From: Asterochloris sp. CNOR1
Lineage: Eukaryota; Chlorophyta; Trebouxiophyceae; Trebouxiales; Trebouxiaceae
DNA: 64,000 nucleotides
Reading direction: 5' to 3'
Assembly (NCBI GenBank): GCA_963969365.1
Contig: OZ017748.1
Coordinates: 2,725,001 to 2,789,000 of the forward strand
Shown: in pieces, positions 3,444-27,800 of the stretch
How positions within the stretch are numbered: position 1 is the stretch's first letter
How the letters are laid out: every line of letters begins with the position of its first letter
The notes under the pieces: generated by a model
Databases searched by the model: none
What the model saw: the letters and a program-made list of their open reading frames with translations, nothing else
What the model was told of the DNA's origin: nothing
Translations under genes and position numbers: made by a program

Positions 3444-6400
3444 ATGCAGCACGACCCGCCCCCTCTCGGGCACGTCCATCCCTCGCGCTTGTATGGCGAG
3501 GGAGCTGCAAATGCGAGGCTGTTCGGCAGAGTCCCTCTTTCAGAGCCAGAGCCAGAGCCAGAGCCAGAGTCGAAATCAGAGCCTGCTGAGGCACCCCAAC
3601 CACGATGGACCTGGGACGAGCTTGTGGATGCCAGGTGACAAGGGCGCTCACACTGCTGCTCACCCGCATGCAGGGCAAGGTTGAGGAGCTGCTTTGCATT
3701 GCAGGCAGGTGACCAAGGATGTTGCCGGCTCATGGGAGGATGCAGAGTTTCTGTAAGTGTACATTACAGTGCCCTGCTATAGTACCTCCTGTTCTGCATG
3801 AGAGGTCTCAGGTTGCCACTGGACTGTGCTCTGTGTTGGCACAGGGATGACATGCTGCAGCTGCGGTGGCCTCTGTCCTGGAAGCAGCCCCTTTTCGCCG
3901 CCCAAGGACCAAACAGGCAGCAGCAGAGCAGAGAGCTGCTGAAACAGGTGGCACGACATGAGGGCGGCCACACTGTCAGCAGAAGCCTGCCTGTCGCCTG
4001 TCTGGCGCTTGCCAGGTCTGGCCTGCCCCTGGAGGCGGCCATTACCCGCAGCCTGGGCGAGCTGCAGTCTGGCCAGGGCTGGCTGGACGCAGCAGCCCAG
4101 CAGCTGGCCATCAAGGCTGCCCCTGAGCACATCTGGGGGCCCCAAGGTCCTCGCAAGGCGGGGCTCGGCATGAAACGGAAAGCTCCCTCTGCCAGCACGC
4201 ACCCACCCAGAAACCATGAGTTTGTCAAGCCAGACGTGGAGAAAAAGCCCCCACTGTCGCTGCACAGACGCCACAGCAGCAGCCAGCGCGGGTGGCAGTT
4301 CAAGCTGCGACCACAGGGTCCACCACCGGTGCCCAAGCAGGATGGAAAGGACCCACGCATGGTGGCTGCCTCGGTGGCAGGGGTGCTGACCCCTGAAGGT
4401 CCCCCAGCGCAGGCACCTGCCAGTGTCCAGGGGCGCCCATGCTCTCCAGCAGCAGACCTGGCAGGGGTGGAGCCTCCCCAGCCAGGGGAGCAAGCAGCAG
4501 GGGTGGAGCATCCGCAGGCAGGGAAGCCAGCAGCAGGGGTGCCTCCCCCACAGGCAGGCCCAGGCGGCTTAGTCAGTCCTGCTGCTGCCCCCGCCACTCC
4601 GGCGCAGGGGCCCCCTCCCGCAGAGCAGCGGCAGCAGGGGCAGGCGCAGGCGTTTGCAGGGGGCGGCCTCGCTGCCCCGTCTGAGGCACATGCGGAGCCC
4701 ATGCATGTGCCGGAGCGTCCTGAGCCGTGCGACCTGGGGCCCGCCTTTCAGGGAGTGATCGACCACCCTGCCGTCCAGGCAGGTGGCCGCACGCCGATGC
4801 CAGCTTCAGCAGCTGGCACGGCTGGCGAGCAGCCACCACCAGGAGCTGCAGGCGGGCAGGCTGACGCAAGCCCCACAGCACTGTGCCTTGCAGCTGTTCA
4901 GACTGTAAAGCAAGAACCAGACGTCCCACAGGAGGCAGAGCACCAGGTCAAGGTGCTCTTTGAGGGGCCCACCAACATGGAGCTGGGCTTTCTGGAGGGA
5001 CCGGCTTGTGGGGAGCTGCAGGCCCAGCAGGTGAGCCAAGCCCGCGAGCATAGTCGTGGGGGGCAATTGCGCTGGGCAGCAGCAGGCGCCAACCTCTCGC
5101 AGAGCGCTGGCTGGAACGGGCACAGCAGTCAAGGCAGTGGCGGTCTGCCCTGTGGAACAGCACTGCCTGGGTGACTATGTGCAACGCCTGATACCTCAGG
5201 GTGTGAGCGCCGCATTTGTTGACATGACACAGAGGCAGTGCCTGTGCCTCTGCAGCACTGGCCACATGCAGGTCTTGCACCTTGACACTGCTGCACACGA
5301 GCTGCCGTCAGGGATGAGTGCCTGGACCCTGTGCTGGCTGGCGGCTCACCTGCAGGAGCCGGTGGACTGCAGCAAGCTGCTGCTCACGCCGCGGTTAGGG
5401 GACGTGCAGCTGGAGGCACTGCTGCCTCAGCGGGTGGTGGACAGGCAGGCTCCCACGGGAGTGCCTGAGGACGGGCGCCTGGCCCCCTTGAGGCTGCCTT
5501 CGAAGGCCCCCATCGTGACCTGGGTGTGCACCTTCAAGAGATGGCGCCAGATTGGCGTGGATCCCAGGTGGGCTTGCCTTGAGGTTGTGGTCACTTCTGT
5601 TGCCTGGACGCAACAGTTCTGCTGTCTGGGCATCGCTGAGCTTGCAGAATTCGTTATGGATAACAGCCACAGCCCATGCTGTTCGCATGTGCATGTCAGC
5701 TCTACCCTCAAGGTGTGGCCAGACAGTTCAGCCGGCTCTGAGAAAGCCATTGAAAAACCATTGAACCAAACTGCAGGCTTCTTTCGCTCTGGCCTGTGCA
5801 TAGGCCACGAGTTGTTTCGAATGCTGTTTGTTATAGAGGACCTGCTGCCTTCCCTGCAGGGCGCTGGACATCTGCAACAAGACCAACAACCGCAGCAGCA
5901 GGTGCTGCCTGCGTTGTGGGGCGCCGCGCCCAGACCTGGAGCTTGAAGAGCGCATCCATGCCATCCTGCAGGCAAGCTGCTGCGTATGCAGCACAGCTGA
6001 TGTCATTTCAGGTGCATGATTCGCCTTCGGCAAGCCCCAGTTGATGCCCTGCTGATTTGCAAGCAAGCTGCTAGCGCTGTGCAATTGCACTGTAGGCAAC
6101 AGTATGCCATGCTTTTAGGGTGGGCCTGGTCACGTCCTTTGCAGCAGGTTGGCAGGCAGAGTGCTGCGTTGTTGTGTCAGCCACAAGCTAACAGCTGGGG
6201 CGGCTCTGGCTTTGGTTGCAGTCCCTTGTCATTATGCTTCTGCCTTCTGCAGACCTCCGGTGAGCAGGAGGTCGACGTGGAAGATGTAATGGCGCACCTG
6301 GAGGTGTCAGCAGGCAGTGCGGTGGGAGCAGGGTTTGCCTTCACTGCTGACGAGGTTGAGGGCGCACTGGCCCAGGCGCAGGCAGCGAGAGGTGCGGACC

Positions 6401-9400
6401 CGCTGCTGTATGGTTGCTTGGTCAGGTCCCATGGCGAGCCAAGTCATTCTGCTTGCCAGGGATGCCTGGCAACATCCATGTGGCTACACCATCAGCTGCT
6501 GCACATTTCCTCAACACTGGCAGACATGCTGTGCTGATGTGCTTGCACAATGGGACCTGCTTGCCTTTGCCCCCAACTCTCCCCCCGCTCCCCGCCCCCC
6601 CACCCAAGAACATTGCACATCTGAGCGGCATCAGCGCAAAATTGGAGCCGTATGCCTGCAGAGACAGCCCATAGCAGCCAGCCTCAGGCACCGCAGCTAC
6701 CCAGCAGCAGTGATGCAATGGGGCTGGCAGGCTGTGAGCCGATCAGCATGCACCAGCGCAGCAATTGGGAGCAGACTTCAGATGCAAGCAGCCTATCTGA
6801 CCTCGACATGGAGCTGCAGGATTGGCAGCAGGAACCAGACAGCTCCCTGGCAGAGACTCTGCACCAACTGCAGCGGGAGAGGCCTCCCGACAACAATGCA
6901 GGTCAGTCAAATTACCCTGGCTGGTGTCCTGCTGTGGGGGCTGCAGCCAACCATAGCTGTGAGGGTGACGCACCAGATATTGAGTGTGCCCCTTGTGACA
7001 GCGACGCAGGGTCCCAAGGCGGCTTCACATTGCTGCTGTTGTGCCACTGCAGGTGAACAGACGCGTCGGGCCTCAAGGCTGATTGACCAGGCAGCCGCTG
7101 CGCTAACTCTGGAGCCGCGGCTGCAAGCTGCCTGGCAGTCTCAGGCCCGTCCCACGCCCAGTGTGCTTGTAGCGCCTGCTGCGGTGTGGTCGAGCAACAT
7201 TGCGGAGGCCCCTGCCATGGCTGGCACAGCTACCAACAGCACCTCCTTGCACACTCTCTCTGCGGCTTCAGACGGCGTGCATGCCACTGATTCTGACGTG
7301 CTGGGAGCGGGGGCCGCTGGGGCTTCTGGCAGCGGTGTAGGGTCCCAGCAGGCGTTCAGGAAGCAGCACCAGCTGCAGTCGAGGTGCACAGCAGCCGCGC
7401 AGGGCAGCCACCTGTCACGCAACCTTGTGGGTGAGTGATGCAAGCTGCATGCCTCCTAATGCTTAAACACGCATGGCTGAAGGATGGGACCACCTCTCCT
7501 TTCTGCATAGCATGTAGTGTGGTGGCAGGAGCGTGCTGAGCTCACAGACTCACACTGCATGTGCTGCTGTATGCTGGCCCAGGTCCAATGTGGTGGCAGC
7601 ACTTCGAGATGGCAGCCATTCAAGTGCTGTCCAAGTGGTTGCTGATCTCAGGGCACCCTGTCTGCTCTGCAGAGCATGCGCTGCGCATCATCAAGCCCCA
7701 CAAGGGGGGTCAGTACAATCAGCTGGGCCGGTTTGAGACGCATCTGCTGCGCATGCTGGACACAGGAAAACCCCCTGAGGATGAGCAGCTCAGGTGAGCG
7801 TGCCTGCATGTGACCTGGCCAAGATCAAAGTCCCTGACCAAGCATGACATGGGCTCTTACTGGTGGAAAGGCATTGAGTGGACCTTCGTCTCCAGAGAAC
7901 AAACGACTTTGCAATGCATGGCGGCCCACTGTGTTGTGCCTTTCACCAGCCGAACCAGACACTTGAGAAGATCCCTGGTGTGCATACGCACATTCCAGAA
8001 CAAGCTGAACTTTGCGCAACCTGGAGACACTGCAGGCAACTGTTTGTGCAGGCAGCTGTTTGTGACCCTGCCTCCTGAGGAGCATCGAGATGTGGAGCTG
8101 CTTGAGGCAGCACATGACAGTGAGATGGATGTGGCCGGCGCGGTCTCTGTGCCTGGGCGCGCTGAGCCACGGGGAGTGCGCTGCCAGGCGTCTGCAGGGG
8201 CCGTTTCAGACCAGACGCTGCACGTGCTGCTGGGTGGCCAGGTCTGTTCAGATTGAAGGCCAGCAGCTGAATTGTTTGTTGTGAGAGGCTCTGGTGCTGC
8301 CGCACCGCACACGCCTGATAACCTGAGACAGGCTGAGCAGCATGCCAGCAGCATGTGCACCTACATCATGCTTGCTTTTCCTTGACAGTGCAGGGCTGTT
8401 CATTTAGTCCTGCGCCAGCTGAGTGTTTGAACCTCTGCCTTCTGCAGAACCCCTACAGCGCCATCAATGCTGGCCAGGGAGGCACCCACAATGCCCCCAA
8501 TTTCAGGCCTGCCACTCTGTTCAGGCTGGGGCAGGAAGCTCGCCGAACATGGTTAGTGGCACCGCAGCTGTCACTGTCAACAGGTAAGTGCACGCCTGGC
8601 TGCAATGCCTGGTTGCTGGCAGGAGCCAGGGCCCCCTATGGGCAATGCTGAACTGTTGCTGACTTTGCCCAGCCAGCGACAACCTTGCAGTGGCAGCACG
8701 GCTGGCAACTGCAGCGCTGCCTGCCATGGCAGCTGGCAATAGGCGGGTGCATGCAGTGCGGGGCTGCTCAAGCTGTCTTTGAGGCTGCTCAGCCAGCTGG
8801 AGCCTGGCAGTGCCTGTGAGGCAGTGGTGAGCAGCCTCAGGGACAGCTTGAGCAGCCCCGCAGTGCATGCACCCGCCCACTGCCAGCCGCCATGGCAGGT
8901 GCCTAAAGCCAGCGCCTGACCTGCTCATAGACAGTAACCTGCTGCATTTTTCAAAGCTGAGGGCAAATCTAAGCTTGTTCTATTCTGTGCAGGACATCAG
9001 AGAGCGGTGGCGCAGGCCAGGCACAATGCCTACATGGCAGACCTCAGGGAGCAGGACCGGCTCAGATACTATAAACAGGCAGCGGCCAGCAACGGGCGCC
9101 AGAAGATCATTGACTATGAGGTGGCCCTCAAGAAGGGCAGGAGTGCTGCCGCTGAGGAGGCTGCTGCCATTTCCGCTGCCAAGCAGCGGCTGGCCTCCTG
9201 TGCGCTCAGGCCACGCACTGCTGAGGGCTTTCGGCCAGTTGTGCATGTGCAGCAGCCAGCAGCACAGCAGCAGCGAACAACATCAGACCATTTGAAAGCT
9301 GTGGGGCCCCAGCAGCTGCAGCAGCAGCAGGTGCATGAGCCGCCAGGCGGCGACGATGCTGCTGTTGTCTTCCAGGCTGCTGGCGTCACACCTGTGCCAA

Positions 9401-9681
9401 AGTTTTTGCAGACGGGCAAGTCCTCAAGGGATGGCAAGACGCTGGCAGCTGAGTCATGCGCCAGCAAGTGGGCTCTTCTGCCCATCAGCACCCGCGAGGA
9501 CCCTGAGATGCACCAGATTGCAGCAGCATTGCATGACAGCACCGTTGAGAACACCCTCATGCAGGAGCTTGCTAGTGCTGGGGAGTCTGTTCAGGCACTT
9601 TTCCTGGCAGCTGCACAGAGCGGGGTGAGCCTTACTGTGTTGCACTCTGCACTTGAACGCTTGCACAACCTTCAAGCATGA
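3444..9681 (+). CDS. Unrecognised multi-exon protein with Cys-rich motif, Pro-rich region and C-terminal helical domain
   Basis: I do not recognise the family. The proposed start at 3444 opens an exon with an (Glu-Pro)n run made by a gagcca repeat and ends PRWTWDELVDAR. The next short exon reads QVTKDVAGSWEDAEFL. A long exon (about 3845-5030) starts with a folded-looking stretch and continues into Pro/Ala/Gln-rich sequence with three 12-residue repeats of the type AGVExPQxG. Later exons encode a domain with CLGDYVQRLIPQGVSAAFVD (5160-5570), a Cys motif C-x10-CCLRCG (about 5866-5975), VDVEDVMAHLEVSAG (about 6254-6411), HALRIIKPHKGGQYNQLGRF (about 7590-7795), and exons near 8058-8242 and 8448-8580. 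The final exon (about 8992-9681) is helical, with RHNAYMADLREQDRLRYYKQ, and is Gln-rich. Exons are in plausible phase but I did not verify every junction; two adjacent genes are possible. Confidence 0.5.
3543..3569 (+). repeat. gagcca hexanucleotide repeat encoding a Glu-Pro run
   Basis: Four uninterrupted copies of gagcca plus a partial copy lie inside the first exon of the 3444-9681 gene and encode alternating Glu-Pro. Confidence 0.8.
4459..4566 (+). repeat. Three 36-bp coding repeats
   Basis: Three imperfect copies, about 12 codons each, encode GVEPPQPGEQAA-like units in the Pro-rich exon of the 3444-9681 gene. Probably internal minisatellite expansion. Confidence 0.6.
8723..8896. ncRNA. 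Long near-perfect inverted repeat (hairpin) in an intron
   Basis: The 69-nt segment 8723-8791 is the reverse complement of 8828-8896 with about six differences in 69, two of which would be G-U pairs in RNA. The loop is 36 nt. Both arms start and end with gccatggc and tgctca-type sequence. It sits inside the presumed intron between the exon ending near 8580 and the last exon at about 8992, on either strand reading. The structure could be a microRNA or small-RNA precursor, a fold-back mobile element (MITE-like), or a structural hairpin. No target-site duplication was recognised. Only the pairing itself is certain. Confidence 0.6.
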
Positions 9682-9945
9682 CTCACTTCCCCATTTGCAT
9701 CCATTTCATGACGCGGTGAACTCACCCCAGGAGATGCGAACCCCTAGGCAGACGCCCCCCCCCCCCCCTCTTGACCATTGTCAGAACTGAAATTTTATGA
9801 CACAATGGCACGTGAGAGAAACCCTAAAAACAACACGTGCAGGCACAAGAAGTGTGCAGGCTTGGCCCATGACTTATGCTGTCGCTTTTATTTGTCTCCG
9901 AAGTTCTGGGCACTTCTGAACCTCCCTGAGCCTTTGCCCGGCAAT
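9682..9945 (+). promoter_or_regulatory. Intergenic region and probable promoter/5' UTR of the AUX1-like gene
   Basis: This 264-bp spacer holds a 14-base C homopolymer (9755-9768), two CACGTG cores (9809-9814 and 9834-9839) and between them AAACCCTAA (9819-9827). CACGTG is the G-box core bound by bZIP and bHLH factors in plants, and AAACCCTAA is the plant telo-box. All lie within 140 bp of the proposed start codon. Function is inferred from motif knowledge only. Confidence 0.45.
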
Positions 9946-12900
9946 ATGGGCGTCGACAAGTCATCTCCTAGTGATACGCCATCGACCCCGATCAAAGGCG
10001 ATGCTTTCACCAACCAAGAGGTGGCTGCGACACCCAGGGAGGATAGTGCCACATATGGCCAGGTCTGTGCCCACATGCATAATCACAGATGCAACAGCAC
10101 GATCTGGCGTCGCTCTGAGGCTGCAAGCTGATCCTCCATGCAGGGCCACCTTGGGCGTGCAAACCTGGCCTTGGTCGACGACAAGGCAACAGGTGAGGCT
10201 GTGAAATGCCATTCCCTCCTTTCTGGGAAGCCATGTGTGCGGTCAACGTGAAGAGCAGACAGCCAGATATTGCCATGTCTGTCCTGCAGCTGAGCCAATC
10301 ATGAAGAAGGGCTGGCGGGGCGGCGCTGGTTCTAACTTTGACGCATGGCTCACGACGGCGGCGGCTCAGGTCAGTGCCGCCCAGCGCCACAAGTGATTTT
10401 CATACTGCAAGGTGTAGCCGCCACCAGTACTGGCAGCCTGCATTGACGGCCAACTGGCGCTTGAAAATGCAACTGCATGGCCTCCACAATATGCCAACCT
10501 CTCAGTGTCTGCAACCAACGGGCTCTGACAGCACCTTGTGCATGCAGATTGGGCAGGTCATGCTGGCGTTGCCCAATGCAGTTGCAGTGGCTGGCATGCG
10601 TGCAGCGGTGCCTCTGATTGTGGTCTATGCTTGCCTCAGCATCTACACCATCCACCTTCTCACCTCCTGCTACGCTCAGCTCAAGCTACGCAAGGTGCAT
10701 GTCTGCTGCTTTCTTGCTGGTTCTGCCTGTGGTGGCTCTCCCAGCTCAAGGTGTCCAGCTGGTTCCCTGCTGTCTGTGCGTGTGTCTGTGTACAGAGGCA
10801 CTTTGGGAACTTACCAGCTTGAGTGATCTGCTCAAGGTGCGGACTGCCTGCAGGTCAAGGCTGGCAAGTGGGCTGGCGGCCATGACAAGAGGGCCACTCA
10901 ATATTTCGAGGTCATGGGAGGTGGGCACAGACAGCCTGACACATGGCCCTGGCAGCAACCCTGAGTGGCACCACTGGCGACTCTGATGTGACCCTGTTAG
11001 AGTAGCACCAACCTGGGTGCTTTCTGGCCGCAGAGCTTGTGGGCCGCCCCTTTGGCCTGTTTGTCCTGGTCATCACCATCATCTCGCTCCTGTCCACCTC
11101 CATTGCCCAGATTGTGGCCACCAGCACCGGCATGTACTACCTGGTGAGCGGGCCGCTCTGAGCTGCAGCTGTGTGTGTGCACAGTGCAAGGCAGGACAGC
11201 CCTGCCTGTCATCAGCCCAGCTCAGGCGGCTTACCCAGTTCTTCCTTGCCTGCAGGACACTTCAATCAACAAGAGGTGACTTCTTGCTGGGGGCACTGCC
11301 TGCCCTGCCATGGTGCTTGCAGGGCAGACCTGGACCAGCTGCCTGTACTGCACTGCAGGAACTGGTCGCTGATCTGGGGGGCAATAACAACTTGCACCAT
11401 GACAATGATCCCAAACTTCAGGCATTTCAGGTGGGGTCCAAGATCTACTCAGCACTTCACGGCCTGCTTGGCTGCGTCGCCTCAGATAGAAGTACAGTGC
11501 CGCCACAGTCCTTGACCATGCATTTGATCGTGCAGGGTGCTGAACATCATTGCCCTGGTGGGCACATCTTACACTGCAATCTACCTGATTGCCACAGCAG
11601 GTAGGATGTCCCGCATCTCTGTGACTTTGATCGGCTGAGCAAGGAGCAGCTGGGGTGTGAAAGGCTCAGAATGCAAACCCTTGTTGGTTCATTGGACGCA
11701 GTCATGATAAACAGCTGGTTGAATAAATTAAGGATCAGCAGCCAATTTGCACATGCAGCGCTCAGCAACCCACACAGAGGATGTCTCCGGGCTGGTGACA
11801 TCTCCCTTCTGCTGCAGCTTCTCATGGGCTTAACGGGCACGCGTTCCACTTGGGACCCACCTCCATGCAGAACCTGTTCCTGGGTGCCAATGTGTGAGTG
11901 GCTGCATGCCACCACTCTATGCAACACATCCACGTCGGGGGCGTGCTGACTGGTTTCGTTTTGTCAATTGCAGCTTCATGAATGCCTTTGGCGGGCACAC
12001 AATGTCCTTTGAGGTGAGGGCAACCAGCCTGGATGAGCTCAAGGCCCTATAGTTGGGCTGTGTTGCTCTGTTTTCTCTCTGTGCACCAATCTTGTGCACT
12101 CTAGATGCTGCAGCTGATGCCTGGCGTCTGCAGGTCATCGACGCAATGTTCCAGCCCTCCAAGTATGATAAAGTGTACCCCTTCAGCTATATTTTTACCC
12201 TTATTGTGACGTTGCCCCACAGCTTCCTTATCCAGCTCGCCTTCCCAGTTCAGAATGCCAAATACGGGGTAAGTGCAGTGCTGTGCGCGGTTGCCGCATC
12301 AGTGCCCAGAGTGGTTGGATTGGCCTTGCCTGCAGCCAATGCAGTGTCGTTCTTGCTGGCTCACACCTTTCTCTCTACACAGTTTGACAGAGTGTTGATG
12401 TCTTGGGCTCTCCTACAGCCTGCAGCACAGTCTTTGTGCTGGCCATCACACATGCCCTCTGCTCCTGCAGAACGTGTACGGCGCGGTGCCAGTCACTGGG
12501 TGGAGGGATGTCTCCATTGTGCTCATGGTGTGTGTCCCTCTCCAGCAGGCTCAAGCGTGCGTTCCCTCAGCACAAGCTGCTGTGACTGACCCGGTGACCT
12601 TGGTGTGCAGGTCATCCACCAGCTGGTCGCCTACGCCCTCTACATCACTCCCGTCCTCTTCATGTGGGAGAAGCTCATACACACACACGACAAGCCACTG
12701 TGGATTCGCCTGCCCAGCAGGCTCCCAGTGGGGCTGTTTGTGGTGAGCCAATCAGCCCCGCCCACAGCCGGGTCTGACAGCGCCTCCCCCAGTTGTGGTC
12801 ATCTTCAGACTGGGCTTTCTGCTTTCACTGCACATCACCTGTGCTCACAATACACCTCCACTGCCATTGACCTCACTATTGACCCTCTGCAGTGGTTTAT

Positions 12901-13978: not shown

Positions 13979-16900
13979 CTACACTGTGCTGCTCTGATGT
14001 GCAGTCATCACATCTGTCCAAGTGCAGCTCAAGCACTTACTCTCATAGCTGTACTTGTAGAGAACAACAAAGTGTTGCAAATTGCCTGCAGCACTGCGCT
14101 GCGAAGCCTCCTGGCACTGCTTCTGCAGCTGCAACTTGTCTGCAACAGTGGTGACACAGCATTTCCTCAACACCGCTGCCAGGACGACACGGTCCTCAAC
14201 ATCATCAGAGGCAAACAATTCCTCTGCGCGCCCAGGGTAGGGGGTCTCCTGCAGCAGCACAGCCTGCCCAGGTCTCAGTGGGGCCAATGCTACAGCTACT
14301 GGTCTCAACCATATGCAGACCTTGTCTGATGCAACCTTGGGCAGACACATACTGCCCCCGACCATGGACAGGAACGCAGGAGCCAACCAGCTGCAGCCAG
14401 ATAATGGTAGCCTTTGCCAATGAGGACATGTGGACCATGAGGAGCCAACGCCACACTCTGTAACCAGCAAGCAGCTGCTGAAGCACATGGAAGCTCAGTC
14501 ACGCTGAGTTGACGGGGTTGCGAGCACGCCTTGCAGTGCATGCTCGGGCCTCACCTCGGGGCGGAAGAAGCGCTTGCAGCACATGAGCATGCGGCTGCGC
14601 AGGCCGAGATCCTCGCTCCAGAGCTTCTTAACCTGGACCAGGCGCGTCCATGGCTCCCCCGGCAGTGGCTGCAGCTCGGCAAAGTCCCCCACAGCCACCA
14701 CCTCGCTGCCCTGCACAGGCGGCAGCATGCGTCAGGCCTGCCGCTGTGCCTCAAGGCGGCTGCCATCCTGCAGCAGCACTGGCGCCACAGATGCCATGTG
14801 GCTCCTAAGGCCACCACCCTGCAACTGCATTGACGTCATGTGGCTGCTGCAGCTACCACCCTGCAACACCACCGACCCTGCAAAACACTATGTGGCTACT
14901 GCAGCGTGGACAAGCTACAGCGACGAGGTGTTGACTGAGCCCATGGATGGCCTGCTCTACAATCTCCTGAGTGACGCTGCGCCCGCAGAGCCCTCAACAT
15001 GTAGGAGAGCTGCAAGCATCCCTCACCAAGCGAAAGGCTCCGTAATAGGTGTGCAGGGGTGGCTGCCTGTTGTCGGGTGGCAGAGAGGCCCCATGCCAAG
15101 CAAGTGTTGCCTGCACATCCCCTGGAGGACGGGCGGCTGCTGCAGCAGGGTCCCTGGCTGTGGCGGCGGGGGCTGCTGCGGGGCCAGGCTCTGTCGTCAC
15201 CCTGCGGCGCTTGGGGCAAGGTCCAGCTGCGGCGCTGTGCGGGGCATCCAGGCTTGGCGCAGGGTCCTGCGCCACCAGATGGCGCCGTTGTCAGGTGGAG
15301 TCCATGCTCTGTCGATGTCACCAAAGCATGACACACCCACACAACTGTAGTGCCTGACAGCCATCAACTTGACTGTGGCCGCCGGCGGCTACACAGGCTC
15401 AACCACAGGGTCAAGTTGAGCAGAGGCATCTCCAGCCGATGGAGGCCTTCCAGCCGTCACGGATGCACAAGGGCAATTGTGCTGTACAGCCCGCACGCTG
15501 TGCGCTGCGCCAGAGGTGCACAACAGCAGGCTGTGCACCTAGTTAACCCTAAACCCTGATACCGGAAGCCAGAGTGCCCTCATCCCCCTCAGCGTCATCG
15601 CTTTGTATTGTTGCATTGCCGCTGGGCCCCGTCACCTGAGGCTTTGGTGCTTCGTTGCCATGAAAGGGCTGGCTGCCCAGCCCGTCGCCAACGTCCCCAG
15701 CCTGCCCATCAGGCGCTGGTTCAGCGCCCTGCTGCAGCAGCCTGAGGGGCTCAGGCAGCTCCCCCGTCACCAAGATGTCACACAGCTCCAACCGCGTGAG
15801 GGCATGAATGCCCTGCCGCCTTGCTGCCTGCTCCACAGCCTACAGCCCACAGAGATCCGCGTGCAGTGGGTCAGCCTTGTCTGAGCTGCACTGCAGGACT
15901 GCAGCATTGGGGGCCGCGCAGGGACTTCAGCTGCCTGTCTGTGGGTGTGTGCGTGTCATGCCCCACTTTCGCCTGCATGTGGGTGTGTCAGCCCACAAAG
16001 GTCTGGCAAGCAGTGGCAGCTGTTTGGCACATCCCAGGGAGGTGTGCCATGACAAGCCTGCATGCAGCTTGAGCTGATGGCTGCCCAGCCCTTGAGTGCA
16101 CACGCTGCAAGTCTTGCTGAGACGGCAGCGCCCTTCAATTTGCGATTGTCAAGTTGAGGACTGCTCTGCAATACACTGCGCCTACCTGAGAGTCAGGCGT
16201 GTCCCTGTCCTCGGCCAGCACCACGGCATGGCAGCCCGCAGAACGTCGCAGGCCTGCATGGGCGACGCGGCGATTGCTCCTGCCAGGCAGCTTGGGCACC
16301 AGCGATGCGCCTGCACCAGCACAGCACTGGGGCTGAGGCTGTGAAGCCAGTGCAAGGCTGTGGGCTGCCGCCAGCTGCGCTGCCAGACCTCAGCACCCAC
16401 ACCTCCTGGGAGCGTGCATTGCCACAACTTGCCAAGCTGCTGGGAGCGGCGGGTACACATACTTGCTGTCCTCATGTGCATTGACTGCTTGTCTTGAAGC
16501 CCCTGCATGTTGCAGGGCTGCCTGCTTGCCTGCAAGCTCCAGCAGCAGGCTCAGCTGCTGTCGCCTCAGCTCGCTGCCGCTTTCATGAGCGTGGATGCGC
16601 AGCCCTGACAGCGGCCTGCGTGCAGCTGATGGTCCCTGCCACACCTGAAGACCAGAAACTGACATTGGCAAGTGGGGCTGCAGGGACTCACCAGCACAGC
16701 ATCATCAATCAACGGGCCAGCATAAGTGCACATCTACCATGCAGGCTCACAGCAATGCCCTAATGACAAGCCTACAGGATCAGCATGGTGAGTAACAGCA
16801 ACAGAGTGCTGGCTTGATGGGTCAGGTGCAGCCAGATGGAACAGCAGCGCAGTTGGACGGTCAGAACACCAGCTGGGTGATGTGATCAGGCCAAATTAGC

Positions 16901-19900
16901 AGGCAACAGCTGGTCAACATGTAGCTCAAGCTCAGATGCAGGGGCAGCACATCACCTTGGTTGGGTCAGCATAAGTCAGCGGGCGCTGAGCCCGCACGCT
17001 GTCCCGCACCCACTGTGGCTTTACGATGGGCAAGCCATGGAGGTGTGCCAGCAAGAATTTGAGGGTCTTGGATTGCTGGCTGGCAACCAGGCACCACCCT
17101 TCACCCTCCGGCCTCTGCAATCAAAACCAGCAAGGGCTATTTGTCGTCTCCTCAATGCTAACAAACAGCAGATGCTTGTGAACTCTGAAAGACAGCGACC
17201 AGCTGAGACCATAAGTCCTCGCTTGCTGACTGTCAGTGAAGGACGCCTGACCTCAGCGTCCGGCGCCGCAGCTGCAACGGTACCCTGTGACACCAGGGCA
17301 TGGGCTACTAGGCAGCACCACACTGCCAGCAGCCCACCTGGCACAGTGCAGGCTCATCTGCGAGCTCCCCACCGTGCAGCTGCACCAGGGCCGACAGCCT
17401 CCTCCGCTCCGTGTCAGCGCCAATGAAGCCAGAGCTCAGGAACGTCATCCCCGCAAATGTGGCTGTGCCCTCCTCTGCCTCCAGATTGGCCTGGACTGCC
17501 GGCTGAGCAGCTGCACCCCCGGTGCCACCAGGTTGCCTGTGACTGCAGGGCCCTTCAGGGGCAGCCTGCACCTCCCGGGGAGGATGCTCTGTGGCAGGAA
17601 CCCCCACTGAGGACCGCTTGGGTGGCCGTCCCCGCTTGTGCGCTGGCAGTGCCGCAGCCTCAGGGTCTGCTGAGGAATCTCTGGCAGCCCCTGCTGCTGG
17701 GGCAGACTGGCGCCTGCTGGCTGCCATGATCCTGTTGGCCTGCAGCCAGAGGCACAGCAGACTGTCAGTGCCGGCCTCACAGACCTGGCTGAAAAGGCCT
17801 GACAGGCGCCACTCTGCGTCACCACAAGCTCCAAGAGTTGGGTGCCTACAGCAGCCGGATCTTCTCCACTGGGGAGCGCGCAGCACCAGCAGCATGATTT
17901 GACAGCTTGCAGGGGCCTGCCCAAATGCAGCAGCACCTCCAGCACATGCGAGCCTGCAGAGCAGGCCCCAGCCTGCTCGCACCTGGACAGACGTGTCCCT
18001 GTCTGCGCGGCACTTCTTGCAGCCAGTGCGCGCGTGGCGGCACTTGGAGCAGCCCAGCGCTGGGACGGGCACGGGCACAGCAGGCTGCCCCGGGGCACAG
18101 CCAGCCTCAGCTGCCGGGGCCTCCCCGCAAGACCCTGGCAATTGTCTGCCGGGGGCAGAGCCCCTGCAGACGTTAGGCCTGGGGGCTGGGCACTCTGCAG
18201 GCGAGGCTGTGTGATCGCAAGGGCAGCTGCTGGTGCCCAGATTCCTCTGCACCCAGGACGGGACTCCGCTCAGCTGCCACAAAGGCGCTGCAGCAATGCG
18301 GCAGACCTGTCCCTGGCAACCGGAAGTGACTTGAGCAGCAGAAGAGACTGAAAGGTGCCCCATACCTCCCAGCAGATTGCTGGTGGCCATGTCTCTCAGG
18401 CTCCCTCAACTTTGTAGGCTTGGTCGCCGTGCAGCATGATGAACAGATGCCAACTCCCAGGAGCTTGCCTGCACACCATCTGCCTCAGGCTCCTCTGATT
18501 CTTCAAAGCACCCTGGACCTGCTCAACACAGCAGCGCAGATCCTAAACTTCCAGCCGCTTGCCTGCCCGCCATCCCTGTCAGGCTCCTCCAGGCTGGCAG
18601 ACGGCTCAGCCCCAAGGGCTTTAGCCTCCCTCAGCAGTACGTCAGGGTCATGCTCAGGGTCCTCGGACTCTGACTCAGATGGCCAACCAGAGGGCTGGAA
18701 CTCTGAATCGCCCCCCTGGGTGTCCATCGCAGCTGGGTCGGCAGACTCGGGCAGGGATTCAAGCTGTCTAGCAGCAGCAGCTGTCCGAGGGGAGATGACC
18801 AGCCTGCAGGAAGCACTGACGAGTGGGCACCTCTACAGCCCCTGTAGAGCCCACAGGTGGAGGGCTTCTGCCTGTACAGGAGAGGTGGCCAGCCTGCAGA
18901 TGTCATGCAGAGATGGGCGCCTCCAAGACTGCAACACAGCCTGTGGATGCTGCAGGGCACTCTGGGCTAAGCTTGCCATGGCCTGCACCTGCAAGACCTT
19001 GTTGCTGTCAGAACGGATGCATGCAGGTGGTACAGCCTGAGTTCCCCACCTGGCAGGTCTCACCAGCCGTCGCCCTGTGCGGCTGCGCTTGCTGGCGCTG
19101 CCTGGCGCCTCTGATGGCCCCGCAGCCGCCTCTTGCCTGCACTTAGTTCCAGCACCTGCACTTGAACCACAGCATCACAGCAGCAGCCAGCTGACAACTA
19201 GCAAGCAGGCCAGCTTCACAGTGCAACAACAAGAGGCAATGGGTATCTGCATGGCACCGCATTGGAGAGCAGGTCATGCAGCTTTCCAACAGCACAGGTA
19301 TCATCAGGCCAACATGTCTTGCTGCTGCAGCAAGCTGCTGAACAGTGGCTGCCACCTAGCCTACCTGCACGCTGCCATTGATCAGCATTGGCCCTCCCCT
19401 GCTGTGGGGACAGCTTGTGCAGGTCTGAGGTTCGCCGTGCGCTCCTTGTGCCACCAAGAACAGAGTCGCCCAGCCCTGTGGCAGGCACGGCCAGCTTGCG
19501 TGCCACCTTCCGGGGGGGAGACGCCGCAGCTGGCTGGGGATTGGCTGGGCCCCTGGCCGCTGCCTGAGCAGCGACATCCCTGCCCAGTGCTGCTGTTGCC
19601 TTCCTCTCCCCCGTCGCGGCCTCGGCAATGGCACTGCCCAGGCGGGCAGCAGAAGCTGCGACCCTGTGAGCCCGCAAGCCAGGGCTGACGTTGGGGCTCT
19701 GCCCTGCCTTGCCAGCTCTGCCAGGGCTCCTGCAGTGCCTGGGAGTGCCCGCAGACCGCAGGTGGGCCCGGGGGCTCATGCGCTGAGCGGGCACTTGCAG
19801 CCTGGTGGTCCCTTCCAGGTGGTGCGCTATTGCAGCCTGCGCCTGGACAGCCTCTGCCTGCCCTGCTGGACACACCTCATCCTCTGGAGCGCTCTGACTG

Positions 19901-22900
19901 CTGGGGAACCTGCGGAGCACCAGTGCTGAGGTTGATGCAGCGCTCCTCAAAAGGCAGACAAAGCCAATTGCTGAGCTTGTGCAGTGCCTATCAGAATGCG
20001 CTTGCAAATGTGCAGGTGGCAGACGCCTGGTGAATCTTGGTGAGGCATGAGCAATGTGTTGCGGCCAAGCTCTCGGTGCAGCTGGAGCACGAGACAACCA
20101 CGCCACTGACAGCTTACGCAAAAGCATCGCCAGCTGCCGCATTCTGTGCCCTCAGCAGCGCCGCCACAGCCGCCCTGGCTGTGGCCTGCGGATTGGCCAC
20201 CTTCCCAGCCGGCGGCGCGCCAGCTGCAGGCATGTTGGCTTGAACCCCTGTGGGAGGGCGAAACCCTGGCCTGCGCTGCAGCGCACCAGAGCCTGGCTGC
20301 TCCCCCCTGCTGCCTCGTGCCATCTGGTGGACCCTGCCCGCAGATTGCCGCCTGGGTCCCCCAGACGCACCTTGCTGCTCAGCAGGCACACGTCCTGGTC
20401 CTGCCTCTGTGCCATGCAGCGCAGCGCCCGCCTTTTGGTGCAGCCTGCCTGCAGACGGCCGCCTGGCTTCCCCGGCACTGTCCTGCTGTGCAGCAGGCGC
20501 ACCCTTGGGCCCCCTGCAGCAACGGCCTGCAGCAGCTGCTGCTGCGGACCTCCAGTCTGGCAGGTACTCGGGATCCTGAGTCTGGAACGGCACCGTCATC
20601 TGCATGGACACAACAGCCCCAGCAGCTGAGGGGGCGACCGGCCCTCTAGCCTTGCCAGGCAGCATTTCCTGATCCTGGGTCTCCAGCCCATGAGGCCACC
20701 ACTGCTGCAGCGCACTGGCATCCCGCCTGCCCTGTGAGTGGACAAGTTCTATAGGGGAGTCTGCGGGGCCTGGAGCCTCGCCAGGCGACTCAGGCTCTGC
20801 AGCGCCGCCATCAGCAGGAGGCCTCGGGGGTTCTGCGGCGCCTTCAGCTGGGCCGATTGACTCACCCGCTGCAGCATCAGCAGCGACAGGGGCCTCTGTG
20901 GCATTCTGAATCTGGCGGGGTGAGTCGAGGAGGGCAACTCGAGCAGCTGCAGCTGCTGCAGCCTCAAAACTCGGTGGGCCTGCCTGAGTCTGCAGGCATA
21001 GGTCCAGGTATGTAGCCCCCTCAGAGCAGCGCAGCTGCGCAGCTGCCACCAGCTGAGCCTGAGGGCTGCAGGCGCCACCTGCGGCCCTGCTGGCTGGCTG
21101 CGGCCGCCCCGGGGCTGCTGCCGTTGCCTTGGGGCGCATGGCTGCCCTGTGTAGCTCTCTTGGCAGGGACACCCCTCGCTCGCTGCCCTTCCGCTGCCTC
21201 TTGTCAGCGGCGGCCACGGCGGCTCCCCTGTTTGTGTGTGCGCCCCATGCGGCGCCAGCAGCATCAGCTGCTCTGCCCCTCTGCTGCCTGGTTCCATCGG
21301 ATGCCACACCAGCACTTCTCTCCACTTGCACCCCCTGTGCAACTTCTTCGGCAGCCGCAGCTGCTGCATGGCTGCGCAGGCGGGGCCTGCCATTTGCTGC
21401 TGAGCACGGACGCCTGAGCGGCAGCTCTGGACGCCCCCGCGCGCTGCCCTGGGCTGACTGCCGGCGCTTGCGCTTGCGGTCTGCTTGCCGGGTGGTCAGC
21501 CTGCAGGGGCTTCAGCACGGTCTTGCCACATTTTTAGGATCTTGCTGTGGGATGATGTGCAGATAATGTCCACAGCCTGCCTGCAAAGTTGCCATCCTGA
21601 CTGATGTTCAAATAGACAATGGGCTGCCTGCAGAGATGCACTGCTGCTGCTGTGTGTAATTCAACAGCTCAGCAACCAGGTGTAGGTAAGCTTCCCACAG
21701 ACCCTGCTGCTTCACCTTTGCAGCGCAAGCCCTGCCACAACCCAGGCCTGCCACAGGCAGCCTGCAACACATCTTGCCATGAGCCCCAACGCCTTACCCA
21801 GAAGCCCTTCCCTTGCGCCCTTCTTCCTGTGGCAAGGCTTGCTGCTGCACAGGAGCCCATCGGCGCCCCTTGCCGCATTCGTTCTGTGCACTGCCATGCA
21901 ACTGCGTCCCACAGGCTGCAGGGCCTCCATCTGCCACCTCATCTGCAGCCCTGGCCTTGTGCACCCAGTCAGGGGTGCTGGGAGGTGTCTGCTCCACGAC
22001 ATACATGAGGGCCTCCGCAGGCTGCTGCTGCTCCCTGTGCTCTGGGCTCAGCGCAGCATTGTGTAGATGCCCAAGCTCCTGCTCTGCAGCGCTGTCCTGG
22101 CCGTCTGAGCGGCGGATCAGGAGTGCCTGCGGGCTCATCTGCATCGGAGCGCTGGAGGGCTCATCTGCCGTTGGCTGCACGCACTGCAGCAAGCACTGCC
22201 AACAGGTCAGACCGGCCCTGCTCCAGGCGCTGCCAGCCTACAGCAGACAGGCGCTGCTCCTGAGGAGCACCTGAAGGAGACTGCAGGATCACACAGGCTC
22301 CCCAGCTGCAACAGCTAGGCATGCATTGGTACTGCTTGGCGTGCTGAAGGCTCTGTGGTGGCCCTGCTGGCTCAGACACGTCACCCTGTGAGGCACTGAG
22401 AGACCCGCCGTGGCGGGCAGGACCAGGGAGCTGGTGTGCCAGTGCTGGAAGGGAAGTCACAAGCATTCATGGCAAGCAGATCCACCTGACTGTTGATGCG
22501 CTGGCTCGTCAGCAGGGCACCCGGCTGGCGCCTCACGCTGCGGGACCCCTCAAAGGGAACTGCTCCATCGCTGTCTCCCGGATCCACTCTGGCGCCGCCA
22601 TCAGGCCACAGATCTGCGCCCGCGGCATCGTTCTGCTGCTGTGTTTGCCCTGCACTGTCTGCCAGCAAGGCGGCTGCCTGCTGCGTGCCGAAGGGCTCCT
22701 GCGGCCCTGCTGCAGTGCCAGCAGCGAGGGCTTCCAGGTCGGGGTGAACCACAGCTGCAGGGGCAGCCTCGTCAGCGGCGCCGGCGGCAGCAGCATGCTC
22801 AGCTCCAGGGCGCCTGTGCGGGGGTTGAGAGGCGGACCTTGACTGCAGGAAACCCAGCGGCAGGGATGGAGGCGTGAACCCCCTGACTGGGGCCTGAGTC

Positions 22901-24156
22901 TCCCCAGCTTGCGCCCCCTTCGCCCTAGTGCTGGTGCTGCTTCTGCGCGGCGGCTCCAGGGCCGAGCGGGTAGGGCTGCTCTCACCACCAGCGCCTCCAC
23001 AAGCAGGGGCAGCAGCAGTGGGTGTGGCTGCATAGCCAGCTGGCACATGTGTGGGGGTCTCAGCTGCACCTTGGGCGGACAGCTCAGCCTGCTGCCTGGC
23101 CAGCTCAGGCTGTGCATCTAGCACAGCAGCTAACAGCACAGCGTCCCCGTTACTGCCAGGCACCTTACCGCCCGCGCTGCCTACCTCTGCTGCCATCCTG
23201 GCCTGATAAGAGCGCGTGGCAGCAGTAGCTGCAGCAGCAGCAGCGGCCGCTGAAGCGAGCCCAGGCGCGCACAGCGACGGCAGCGACAAGGGGCGCGCTA
23301 CCTCCTGTGTCTGCTGGGTCTGTAGGTCCAGCGCCAGGGCTTCCAGGGATGCCAGGCCTGCCTGGCCCAGCTGGCTGCCACCCGTTTCAGCAGCAGCACC
23401 CTTGGCTGTCTGAGGCACCAGCATGGCCGCTGGTGCATGGTGCTGGGTGCTGGCGGGGAACAAATCCATGCCCAGGGCGCCAGCAAGTGACGGGCGCACA
23501 GGCTGCCTGGCACCCTGCTGCGCTGGCTGGGACTCAGGCCACTGGCTGGCCACCCGAGGGCCCACCTGTGCAGCCTCTGGTTGGCTGTCAGCAGGTGGTG
23601 CTGAGCCAAGTTCCGGGCTGCGCCTGCCAACAGCATCACCAGCCGCCTCAGGATCGTCACCGGTGGGCTGAGCGGCCACAACAGCAGCAGGGCTGTCCCC
23701 ATCGCTACCTTCGGTTGCCTCACAGCCAGCCTGAGAGGAGGCGCCCTGCTGTGGCTGCCCTGAGAGCAGCCTCCCGCGCTGGCTGCCTGGCACCGCAGCC
23801 CCTGCCTGCCCCACTGGTGTCGCCTGTGCAGTGCTCAAGTCACCGGGGCCCAGTGCTGATGCAGCACGCCCGGAGGCACCAGCCTCAGCAGCTGTGGGGC
23901 TCCCAGCAGGCTCTGCAGCAGGCCCATGGCTGCCTGGCTGGGCCTCCACCCCAGCCCTGTGCTCTGAGTCCGGCCCGCTGTGAGGACCACCTCCATGCAT
24001 CTGCTGGGGGCTGCGGTTGGAGTGTGGGGTGCGGCCGGGCTGCTGCGTGGCCTGTGTGCGGTCCCTGCCTGGCGTGATTGCTGTTGGACAGCAGCTCTCG
24101 GGGAAGACGTGGCCCCCCTGCTGTAGCCTCTCATCCCGGTGCTGACAATCCTCCAT
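13979..24156 (-). CDS. Large disordered protein with AT-hook, tandem 53BP1-like BRCT repeats and C-terminal BAH domain
   Basis: Probably a nuclear chromatin/DNA-damage adaptor. From 24156 a long Ala/Gln/Ser/Pro-rich exon (to about 22400) is followed by similar exons (21331-20114, 20142-19400, 18770-18500) containing Thr-Gln sites such as ETQDQEMLP and FQTQDPEYLP. Near 18100-18000 lies a Cys motif GCSKCRHARTGCKKCRADRD. An exon at about 17730-17341 carries an AT-hook KRGRPPKRS and the start of BRCT1, ATFAGMTFLSSGF. BRCT1 continues at about 17118-16955 with WCLVASQQSKTLKFLLAHLH and GLPIVKPQWVRDS, which follows the 53BP1 BRCT1 pattern (SGIPCVSHVWVHDS). BRCT2 exons (about 16650-15700) read PLSGLRIHAH, CHAVVLAEDRDTPDSQ and GIHALTRLELCDILVTGELP. 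A BAH domain follows: LHTYYGAFRL, then EVVAVGDFAELQPLPGEPW, KRFFRPE, and ELFASDDVEDRVVLAAVLRK. Exon ends in the long N-terminal part are uncertain, and exons at 24.8-28.4 kb may belong to the same gene. Confidence 0.6.
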
Positions 24157-24831
24157 GCCACACAGCGCCTGCAGACAGTGCCTTGTGCTCAGGTAAACTG
24201 CCTGAGAACAAAAGGTCTTCAGGATACAAGAGGCACCCTGAGCGGCAGCTGCAGCAGCTGCTCAGGCCATCTGAGAAATGCTGATGCGGGGACAGATGGA
24301 CAGAAAGCCCCTGCTGGGGCATGATGCAACAACTCTTTGTAAGCAATGCAACATGCTGCCAACTGGATATAGACCAATCGAGTTGCAAAGCCAATGTACA
24401 CGCCTTATGGGGCTTGTCCATCCCAGCACAAGGCCGCAGCAGCTTGCTCTCATGATGAATGCTGCAAAGCGCTGTCTCACTTTGCAGAAATGCATTGGAC
24501 AACCAGTGCCCTCACCCTGCCAGGGCTGTCCATATCTGGCTGAGTGGGCTCAGCACCCTCAAAGTCCACCGCGTGCAGGCCTAGGCACACTCGAGCAATG
24601 CACAGCTGGCGCTGCAGCCAGGCTTCCTGCAGCACACCAGACCTGCGAGCTCAGCAGCCAAGACGAAGGAGATGTTGACCACAGTCGACAGCAACGCTGA
24701 GCATTGCGCACTTCACCTCACTGTGCAAGGTAGCTGCCTCCAGCCTCAAGGCGCATTCGCCAATGCTTGACAAACGTGCACAGACCACAGAAGCAGGCAG
24801 CAAGCAGCAGGTGGCAGGCACATGACCTTTA
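24157..24831. other. Unassigned stretch between Ala/Gln-rich exon blocks
   Basis: About 675 bp without a convincing exon on either strand. If 13979-24156 and 24832-28427 are one gene this is intronic; otherwise it holds the promoter of the BRCT-BAH gene and the 3' end of the upstream one. Confidence 0.35.
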
Positions 24832-27800
24832 CTACACAGCGCACGTCTGCCCCAGCCACGCGCTGCTCACCGCTGTCCCATGTCTGCGCCACAGGTGGCG
24901 CCCTGCAACGGCCCGCCATGCCCTGCCCTGCTCCGCCTGAAGCGCCTCAAACAGCACCATGCCAGCAGCATCCCCTGTCAGGCCACTGGCGATCCAGTAG
25001 CAAGAGAGGCAGTCACCCTCTGCCTGCGTGTTCTGCAGCGCTTCCACAGGGGAGGCCTCCGATGCATCTGGCAGCTGTGGTCCCTGCAGGCGGCACACAC
25101 CCGGGTTGTCATTGATTGAGCATGCAAGTGACCAGGTTCAGCAGCGGTCTTGCAGCAAACCTGAGTCAAGAACATACCCTCTGGCAACCCTGGCTTGGGA
25201 ACAGACACCCTGACCATAGAGTGAGGTGCTGATTGTTGCCAGTGCACCGTGCACCCCCACCAGCAAGTCGTTTGACTAAGGCCATCAGGGCTCCAGGGGG
25301 AGCACTCCAGACAGCATGACCGACGGGTCTCACCGCAAGCTCAGCTGCAGCCTGCAGCTGTGCCGCTGCTTCCTGCCAATGCAGTGCCTGCTTGGCGCTG
25401 CAGGCATAAGATGCCCGCAGCGCTGCCTGCTCCGCAAGTTCAGCCTCTGCCTGGCACAAGGGCAGGCCCTGCACGCGCTTCCAGAGCACAGCAGCCTCCT
25501 CAATCAAGTCGACCTGCACAGACAGGCAAGGGGCCAGTGCTGAGAGCATGCCACGCAAGGCCTGTTGCAGCCTCAGCTTTGCTTTGTGGAGTGCATGGCT
25601 GCCCACAAGCTATGCCCTACTCAAAAGAAGTCTGCAGCACCATCAGCCACGCACATTGTGCCCTGGATTTGCAGTGATGCCAGCGCTCTACCATGCCCTT
25701 GTGGTGCGCAGGAAGAGCAGAGTGCCTGCGCTTGTCGAGGATGCACAGCTAGCAATTGCAGCAGCCACACCTGTCTAATGTCTGTCCGAGCGTGGACTTC
25801 TGCTTCACGAGCCAGGTGCACAGCAATAATCCTCTGCACATGCTGTGCTTCATCTGCCACAGTGGCAGCGGCTGCTGCCACACCATCCTGGGTGCCAGCA
25901 ACGGCCCCAGCTGTGAGGACTGGTGAAGCGCCGGCCATTGCAAGGCCATCCTGCGGGGCGCTCGCCTCACGCCCAGGCTGAGCAGATTCAGGCTCAGAAC
26001 AGCCGGGGCTGCTTCTGACTGGAGCAGCCTCAGTGATGGTTGCCTTGGCCTCAGCCTGGGCAGACTCGGGTACTGTCAGGCCTGCTCCAACTTGCGGCTC
26101 CCCGGCATGGCTCACGGCAGCTAGAGGGCCGATGTGGCCTCTGCCTGCTGCGTCAACGTTGGTGGCTGGGCCGGTGTTGACCTGCTGACGCTGGGACGCA
26201 GCCGCTGCCGCTGCTGCAACAGCAGCAGCAGCAGAAGGTGAATTCTGTTGCTGCTGCTCTGCCTCTGCACTTGCTCTGACGCCAGAGCCGTGCTGCACAC
26301 CACTGGCTGGGGTCTCAGCTTCATCACCCTGGGCTTGTGACCCTGCATCATAAGTAACGCCTGACTTTCAGCAACCCTAAGCTGGTGCTGAGACACACAA
26401 CCGATCCCAACAGGTGCGCAGAGTCCACGCATCAGACACCCATTGTTGGTATGCTGACCCTACAAAGCTAGGCTAGACATGCCTCTCAAGAGTGAACTTC
26501 ACCAGAGCCATTCAGTGCATGGTGGGCATGGGATCAATAGGCACAACAGGAGGGACACACACCTGCGCGGGAGTCCAGCCCCAGGCTGACTGGGACCATG
26601 CTCGGGTGGCCGTTAGCAGCGCGGGCTGTGAAGGCCGCCAGGCTGGCATCCACCTGTGCCTTCTTGTTGCTGGCAGGCTGCTGATTGCCCGTCTGAGCTG
26701 CTGCCCCTGTAGCCGCACGTACTGCCTTGCTGCTGGCAGGCTCCTGGCTGCCCCTCCTCGCTGCAGCCTCCCTTGCAGCGGTGGGGGCAGGAGCAGCAGG
26801 TGTGCCCCCCCTGCTCTGTGAGGCAGGCCCAGCTTCAGGTCCTTCAGCGGCACTGTTGGTGCCTTCAGCGCCACTGCCAGTTCCCATCCCCTTGGAGGCA
26901 CCCTCTCGCTGGGTTTGATCTCTGCCTGCCTGGCCGGCAGCCCCTGCTCCACACTGCCCTCTGCCCTGCCCTGGGGCCTGCTGGCTGCGCTCCTGGCCTG
27001 CCTGACCGCTGGCCGGCGCTCCTGACTGCGCCAGCTCTGCCTGCTCTGAGCCCTGTGCCCCACCCTCGGGGGCAGCAGCATCAGACCCAGCGCCATCAAT
27101 GCGCTCTGGCGCAGCAGCCTCAGCACTGTGCCTTGCCACATGCTCAAGCACAGCAGCATCAGACCCTGTGCCCTCTGCATGCTCTGGCACTGGAACCTTT
27201 GTGGTCTCCTCCACAAAGGACAACATCTGGAGCTCTGTGGCTGCGCAATCTACAACCTCACTTTCCAGCGCAAGGGAGGCCACCTGGGGCTGGCAGCGCT
27301 GGGAGGCTGTCCCTACCACAGATGGCTCGCTGCGTGCTGGCACCTCCTGCAGCTGGCAGGGTCGAGAGGTGCCGCCAGCCGCGCCCTGCTGGCTGCCTAT
27401 AGGCGGCTGCTGTGGCGCAGCTGCGCCCTCAGGCTGCCCCTGGGGGCCTTTGCTGCCAGCACCTTGCTGGGCTGATGCAGCTGGCCCTCCCTGACTGGAC
27501 TTGGTGTCCTTGCCTGAGGGAGGCAGGCGGGCAGCGTCCTGTTGCTTGACTGCCTGGCTGGATGCTCTTGCACCTCCAGCGCCCCCACTGGCAGCCGCCA
27601 TCGGCCCAGAGCCCAGAGGGGGCTCCTGCTGCGCGGCCAGCCCCGGGGGTGGCATGAGCGCTGCTGAGGCCTGCTGAGCCCCAAGTGCCTGCTGCTGCTG
27701 AACAGCGGGAGGGTGCTGCCCTGGCTGCCTGGCCTGCGAGGGGGAGGTCAGGGGGCTGCGCCCACAACTGCTGCTGACCTTGCTGCCCACAGGGGATGGG

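Follow-up and report, generated by a model that had tools for sequence, protein, structure and literature searches.

The 64,000-nucleotide stretch of the Asterochloris sp. CNOR1 genome analysed here (contig OZ017748.1 of assembly GCA_963969365.1, forward-strand positions 2,725,001 to 2,789,000; called the window below) carries on its minus strand a gene that appears to pair a damage-type, phosphate-reading BRCT module with a chromatin-binding BAH domain, the function being a predicted one. Eight exons running from 17739 down to a stop codon at 13979 were joined in one frame by hand splicing (Table 1), and the model reaches 709 amino acids with a provisional first exon (18390-17983). This is probably one real gene combining both kinds of domain; the main doubts concern the second BRCT repeat (BRCT2) and some exon borders. 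The BRCT and BAH peptides quoted in the original prediction for this DNA were all found on the minus strand, in the place and order it had given. For the gene product we favour, with confidence about evenly balanced, a nuclear, phospho-dependent DNA-damage chromatin adaptor in which the BAH would contact a nucleosome or a protein and not H4K20me2: the adaptor role proposed originally is retained as the best reading, with support from the first repeat (BRCT1), the BAH fragment, an H2A exon ending in SQEF, and upstream minus-strand coding signal with a predicted exon rich in Ser-Gln and Thr-Gln (S/TQ), while the H4K20me2 contact through the BAH that went with it is unlikely.

BRCT1 (GLPIVKPQWVRDS) exceeded the Pfam cut-offs both when scanned alone (BRCT_2, 33.0 bits with a cut-off of 27.3; BRCT, 29.8 bits with a cut-off of 21.3) and inside the whole 709-residue model (27.4 and 23.8 bits, respectively). 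Moreover, it scored 35.4 bits against a hidden Markov model (HMM) of four human tandem BRCTs, a value reached by none of 1000 shuffles. Its matches in the PDB were weak, namely REV1 (20.2 bits, E 0.004), 53BP1 (18.7 bits, E 0.013), Crb2/Rhp9 (17.4 bits), Pescadillo (16.7 bits), MDC1 (16.1 bits) and PTIP (15.5 bits). PTIP stood above 53BP1 and MDC1 in pairwise tests of BRCT1; in end-gap-free comparison of the tandem region 53BP1 was the top of the four human proteins, and a protein of this alga encoded on contig C4, described below, scored higher still. The view that the repeats are 53BP1-like in particular had to be given up, Crb2, MDC1 and PTIP being about equally close in BRCT1. In a comparison with Crb2 (chain 2vxb), SSG of BRCT1 lines up with SG and SKTLK with SRKVK, both stretches being weak (2.9 and 8.2 bits); in this weak alignment a Ser-Gly, following strand 1, and a Lys are present at the expected places, which we take to be the phosphate pocket of the phospho-reading tandem BRCTs. 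The Lys in SKTLK would then correspond to Crb2 K619, whose replacement in crb2-K619M disrupts the gamma-H2A pocket (PMC4569340).

The BAH domain (Pfam PF01426) was recognised at 32.7 bits against a cut-off of 30.8 with a 140-residue fragment alone and was not returned by Pfam for the whole 709-residue model, so that this part of the original prediction stands by a narrow margin. An exon-by-exon search of the genome (56.4 Mb in 21 contigs) with PF01426 gave no match at the BRCT-BAH gene and matched only another locus, on contig C5. The nearest structure in the PDB was PBRM1 (21.0 bits, E 0.003), and EBS followed with 16.7 bits (E 0.06); ORC1 was absent from the 17 matches. The BAH domains of SHL and AIPP3 read H3K27me3 through a Tyr-Trp-Tyr cage together with a His and an Asp (PMC6013494, PMC7718874; reviewed in PMC13068663). 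With these positions placed on EBS by spacing, and given the weakness of the EBS alignment (E 0.06), the corresponding residues of the window protein are Arg586, Arg610, Phe612, Asp636 and Glu638: none of the five is kept, and the cage Trp is replaced by Arg. The alignment is firm around RPE and looser at the first Tyr, where a Trp, Trp584, stands two residues ahead of Arg586. Because none of these residues is kept in the EBS alignment, the domain is unlikely to be a classical methyl-lysine reader. Methyl-lysine-binding BAH domains, that of mouse ORC1 included, are reported to use a canonical aromatic cage (PMC6013494), and the Trp position of the ORC1-type cage is likewise an Arg, as judged through the EBS alignment rather than through one with ORC1. 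Given the residues aligned with the cage, neither H4K20me2 nor H3K27me3 is a likely ligand of this BAH. The favoured mode of contact would be by a face other than the cage, as in Arabidopsis ORC1b, the BAH of which binds unmodified histone in this way (PMC6013494). The window protein thus resembles EBS, SHL and AIPP3 in having a BAH by Pfam, with weak PDB similarity to EBS, but differs from them in the cage and His/Asp residues, and Pfam returned no PHD finger for the model; it shares a BAH with ORC1, whereas Pfam returned no AAA+ domain for it.

Two further loci of the same genome bear on the proposed function. A gene on contig C4 (L040, C4:415500-424500, approximately 1780-5280, plus strand) encodes a Tudor domain of the PTM/DIR17 type, which a long low-complexity linker separates from a tandem BRCT of the BRCA1 class. 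With the Tudor ahead of the BRCT pair, this is the domain order of 53BP1. The Tudor was identified at 29.7 bits (PTM_DIR17_Tudor, cut-off 27.2) and by PDB entry 7de9 (E 3.3e-7), and its second half shares one long open frame with the start of the BRCT region. The tandem BRCT, spliced by hand with one GC-AG intron, matches BRCA1 across both repeats (E 4.6e-8) and scored 21.5 bits for Pfam BRCT (cut-off 21.3) and 25.4 bits for BRCT_2, below its cut-off of 27.3; in the two pieces of the gene that were scanned, Pfam matched no BAH. Both proteins carry a Ser-Gly and a Lys where the BRCT pocket is expected, whereas the C4 protein combines these with a Tudor and a BRCA1-class pair and the window protein with a BAH. 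The window protein is therefore not simply a Tudor protein with a swapped reader. In addition, a locus on contig C8 (L039, approximately 1396-2157) comprises a frame for the core of an H2A and, after it, a frame whose last residues before the stop are GGSVSQEF (GKKGEEGGSVSQEF). It is a candidate H2A.X, found among the 20 loci inspected of 29 histone matches; since this H2A exon ends in SQEF, gamma-H2A.X signalling is possible in this alga. On contig C16 (L041, C16:91000-99500, approximately 3418-3789) there is a frame with a BRCT-like helix, RRTSKYLMGVATGKWVVSLGWVQ, and another BRCT-like piece close by.

Following this, we propose that the tandem BRCT of the window protein would bind a phosphoserine generated by ATM/ATR, the first candidate ligand being gamma-H2A.X because of the H2A exon ending in SQEF, and that the C-terminal BAH would add a second contact, to the nucleosome or to a partner protein, by means other than a classical methyl-lysine cage. 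Further contact, with DNA, may come from the AT-hook-like and Cys motifs. The S/TQ stretches of 53BP1 and MDC1 are phosphorylated and recruit downstream factors, and the S/TQ-rich stretch upstream, if part of the same gene, would be a substrate of ATM/ATR too and act likewise. The frame in question contains 19 S/TQ where 7.9 are expected (0 of 2000 shuffles), the lowest p among the 53 frames of at least 200 residues in the window. Several observations weigh against the adaptor. REV1 and Pescadillo, which are not checkpoint mediators, match BRCT1 as well as such mediators do. An Arg in Crb2 and MDC1 holds the C-terminus of gamma-H2A; the window protein has a Lys at this place and the C4 protein an Arg (RAKRSLK), because of which the latter may be the better candidate for a gamma-H2A.X reader. 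BRCT2 stayed without a match in Pfam when the threshold was relaxed to E 10, no BRCT was among its PDB sequence matches, and its HMM score of 0.3 bits was not significant, 48 of 1000 shuffles being at least as good. The S/TQ-rich exon, furthermore, is a putative member of the BRCT-BAH gene, and in five further minus-strand frames upstream S/TQ is not clearly enriched (4 against 3.2 expected, 10 against 9.0, 3 against 3.0, 1 against 2.2 and 1 against 0.6).

The alternatives to the adaptor, not all of which exclude it or one another, can be weighed on the same evidence. Possible, though with clearly lower probability, is a BRCT-BAH protein of transcription or silencing, in which the BRCT would bind a phosphorylated partner such as the RNA polymerase II tail and the BAH a histone or nucleosome: PBRM1 and EBS, the nearest PDB relatives of the BAH, are transcriptional chromatin regulators, and the BRCT repeats of BRCA1-BARD1 recognise the phosphorylated polymerase tail (PMC12805184). 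Contrarily, BRCT1 ranks near several damage mediators, the S/TQ-rich exon fits ATM/ATR signalling, and the BAH is without the residues for reading H3K27me3.

An unlikely alternative, compatible with the others, is that the supposed BRCT2 (GIHALTRLELCDILVTGELP; 16611-15744, residues 335-447 of the 709-residue model) is not a BRCT, in which case the protein would have a single BRCT and a BAH and no phospho-reading pair. The missing Pfam and PDB matches and the insignificant HMM score speak for this. NCBIfam, scanned with the tandem BRCT as a whole, returned nothing. In an anchored test, BRCT1 was kept fixed and BRCT2 shuffled 1000 times: the comparisons with 53BP1, MDC1 and PTIP were no better than shuffles (124, 644 and 834 of 1000, respectively, reached the real score), whereas those with BRCA1 (0 of 1000) and the C4 protein (14 of 1000) argue for a second repeat, and 44 of 1000 reached it for a five-sequence HMM. 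Pocket residues of the phospho-reading class are also present in BRCT1. Taken together, a second BRCT, called from its place and pattern, is probable, with mixed shuffle tests; of the tandem proposed originally, BRCT1 is confirmed by library models and BRCT2 is not, and a search with models of both domains found BRCT1 and the BAH fragment and left BRCT2 unmatched.

Distinctly less probable is the presence of two adjacent same-strand genes, one for the BRCT and one for the BAH, joined only in the hand model. The splice sites were chosen by hand, GT-AG being picked deliberately; Pfam found the BAH only with the fragment, and the final exon of the BAH was missed by a crude gene finder, which was trained on 767 codons of other genes, this one excluded, and run with start and stop fixed. 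Against two genes, the exons of BRCT2 are connected in frame to those on the BAH side by phase-0 splice sites that flank an intron of normal size (369 nt; the introns of the model measure 183-369 nt, one splits a codon and the rest are phase 0), and at one of its three penalties the independently trained finder returned 15839-15636, 15266-15027 and 14710-14555 with exact borders. Overall, exact recovery was 5/8 exons at an intron penalty of 12, 3/8 at 9 and 1/8 at 6; for exons 17114-16956, 16644-16463 and 14263-13979 all three settings failed to give an exact match, although some of their borders were found. The claim of BRCT and BAH in one protein is supported by exons that splice in frame, and weakened at the last BAH exon. 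No paralogue was found in the genome at E<=1 (9 matches, all inside the BRCT-BAH gene; 10 candidates scored), where 31 exon-level matches to chlorophyll a/b-binding proteins were present, and the tandem-BRCT query confirmed no related locus in collections of viral and genome contigs, which hold no eukaryotes as such and have little bearing on orthologues.

Very improbable, finally, is the equivalence to 53BP1 proposed originally, with the BAH reading H4K20me2 instead of a Tudor: despite the rank of 53BP1 among the PDB matches of BRCT1 and over the tandem region, and a gene model shared by BRCT and BAH, the cage Trp is an Arg and the other cage positions are not kept in the EBS alignment, ORC1 is not matched, BRCT1 is not specific to 53BP1, and the Tudor-tandem-BRCT gene on C4 weakens the idea of a BAH in place of a Tudor.

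The gene probably extends beyond the bound at 18390 given in the original prediction. That ATG is probably not the true start, because there is little coding signal around it (a noisy measure, exon 17114-16956 being low as well) and because the minus-strand signal goes on upstream, to approximately 24.2 kb; the full protein may exceed 2,000 amino acids. Upstream exons were predicted with an exon-chain program whose chains had to finish at the 17739 exon; its intron penalty was set higher than in a discarded first version, which had over-split the region into tiny exons, one of them with a stop. At penalty 14 it gave the seven upstream exons of Table 1 (1493 amino acids), at penalty 10 it gave 13 smaller exons (1344 amino acids), and from a start at 28.3 kb the chains came to 2226 or 2044 amino acids. 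The minus strand of 24500-17739 scored 206.6, a value that is not independent since the codon model was trained partly on the BRCT-BAH gene, against 5.6 for the plus strand of 17739-24500; 34 other half-overlapping tiles on both strands scored from 0 to 195, the minus-strand tiles at 131-195 overlapping the upstream region and the plus-strand tile 3402-10163 reaching 170. We infer that the upstream exons belong to the BRCT-BAH gene. No Pfam family was above cut-off for the Cys-motif exon, whose motif CSKCRHARTGCKKCR might, as a guess, be a small zinc or DNA-contact motif, and there was no Pfam match for the S/TQ-rich frame or for exons 20118-21500, 19365-19909 and 18519-18803. Further minus-strand coding signal at 25334-28136 could represent more N-terminal exons or a separate gene. 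Among the neighbours, a plus-strand amino-acid transporter gene ends just past the BRCT-BAH gene, and at approximately 30 kb of the window there is an exon of a family 1 glycosidase.

Table 1. Exons and motifs assigned to the BRCT-BAH gene (window coordinates; those upstream of 17739 are putative members).
Feature	Position	Strand	Basis
S/TQ-rich open frame; predicted exon approximately 24156-22486	22384-24261	minus	S/TQ count, coding signal; putative member of the same gene
Predicted upstream exon	21798-22138	minus	Exon-chain, penalty 14
Predicted upstream exon, low complexity	20118-21500	minus	Coding signal, exon-chain
Predicted upstream exon	19365-19909	minus	Coding signal, exon-chain
Predicted small upstream exon, weak	19064-19136	minus	Exon-chain
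Predicted acidic upstream exon	18519-18803	minus	Coding signal, exon-chain
Predicted exon with Cys motif CSKCRHARTGCKKCR (18051-18010)	17983-18163	minus	Hand splicing, exon-chain
AT-hook-like KRGRPPKR (17637-17614) and BRCT1 start (TFAGMTFLSSGF)	17338-17739	minus	Hand splicing, gene finder
Remainder of BRCT1 (SKTLKF...GLPIVKPQWVRDS)	16956-17114	minus	Hand splicing, Pfam, PDB, HMM; 5' border not recovered by gene finder
Probable BRCT2 start (PLSGLRIHAHESG)	16463-16644	minus	Hand splicing, shuffle tests, gene finder; 3' end uncertain, 16403 as alternative
Probable BRCT2 middle (CHAVVLAEDRDTPDS)	16186-16279	minus	Hand splicing, shuffle tests, gene finder
Probable BRCT2 end (GIHALTRLELCDILVTGELP) and linker	15636-15839	minus	Hand splicing, shuffle tests, gene finder
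Linker, nuclear localisation signal-like PKRRRV (15215-15198), YYGAFRL ahead of BAH	15027-15266	minus	Hand splicing, gene finder
BAH first part (VGDFAELQPLPGEPW ... CCKRFFRPE)	14555-14710	minus	Hand splicing, Pfam, PDB, gene finder
BAH remainder (ELFASDDVED ... LRKCCV ... YKYSYE) and stop	13979-14263	minus	Hand splicing, Pfam, PDB; not recovered as single exon by gene finder

In 53BP1 and Crb2 the Tudor precedes the BRCT pair. The window protein is comparable to them in the broad class of BRCT1, in the Ser-Gly...Lys pocket aligned with Crb2, in its proposed second chromatin contact and in a possible S/TQ-rich N-terminal region, but its BAH comes after the BRCT region and the PDB similarity is confined to BRCT1, whereas in Crb2 the Tudor lies ahead of the BRCT pair (PMC4569340). 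No Tudor was found in the 709-residue model or in six upstream minus-strand frames scanned, which cover part of the predicted exons; PF09038 was unmatched anywhere in the genome, in a search that matched no control either. MDC1 and PTIP share the tandem-BRCT class, and both are similar to BRCT1 of the window by shuffle test; however, MDC1, BCP3 and BCP4 end in a BRCT pair and PTIP has six BRCTs, while in the window model a BAH follows the BRCT region, which thus lacks the C-terminal position of the tandem BRCT used as a criterion for BCP4 (PMC11014961). According to the same source, 21 BRCT proteins have been identified in Arabidopsis, none with the TP53BP1 domain order, BCP4 is the counterpart of MDC1, BCP1 and BCP4 are not unambiguously identifiable in most unicellular green algae, and single BCP3/4 proteins have been placed in other algae (PMC11014961); the word BAH was not met in the excerpts of this paper on plant BRCT proteins. 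BRCT and BAH have both been called promiscuous domains (PMC2993927). In agreement with the original prediction, which knew of no described plant protein of this order, no BRCT-BAH protein was found described in the openly accessible literature, a scope outside which most subscription papers fall.

A bolder and rather improbable extension of the adaptor would be a giant (>2,000 amino acids) damage mediator of green algae targeted by ATM/ATR. A cluster of S/TQ would lie at its N-terminus, a small Cys motif would provide a new kind of DNA contact beside an AT-hook, and a tandem BRCT that reads phosphate would be joined to a BAH that reads the nucleosome without a methyl-lysine cage. Such a protein would work beside the Tudor-tandem-BRCT protein; if this were true, the two jobs of 53BP1-type proteins would be split between two algal genes. 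BRCT with BAH would be a new pairing of reader domains, and a BRCT-BAH adaptor and a Tudor-tandem-BRCT protein in one alga would provide concrete candidates for the reading of damaged chromatin in green algae.

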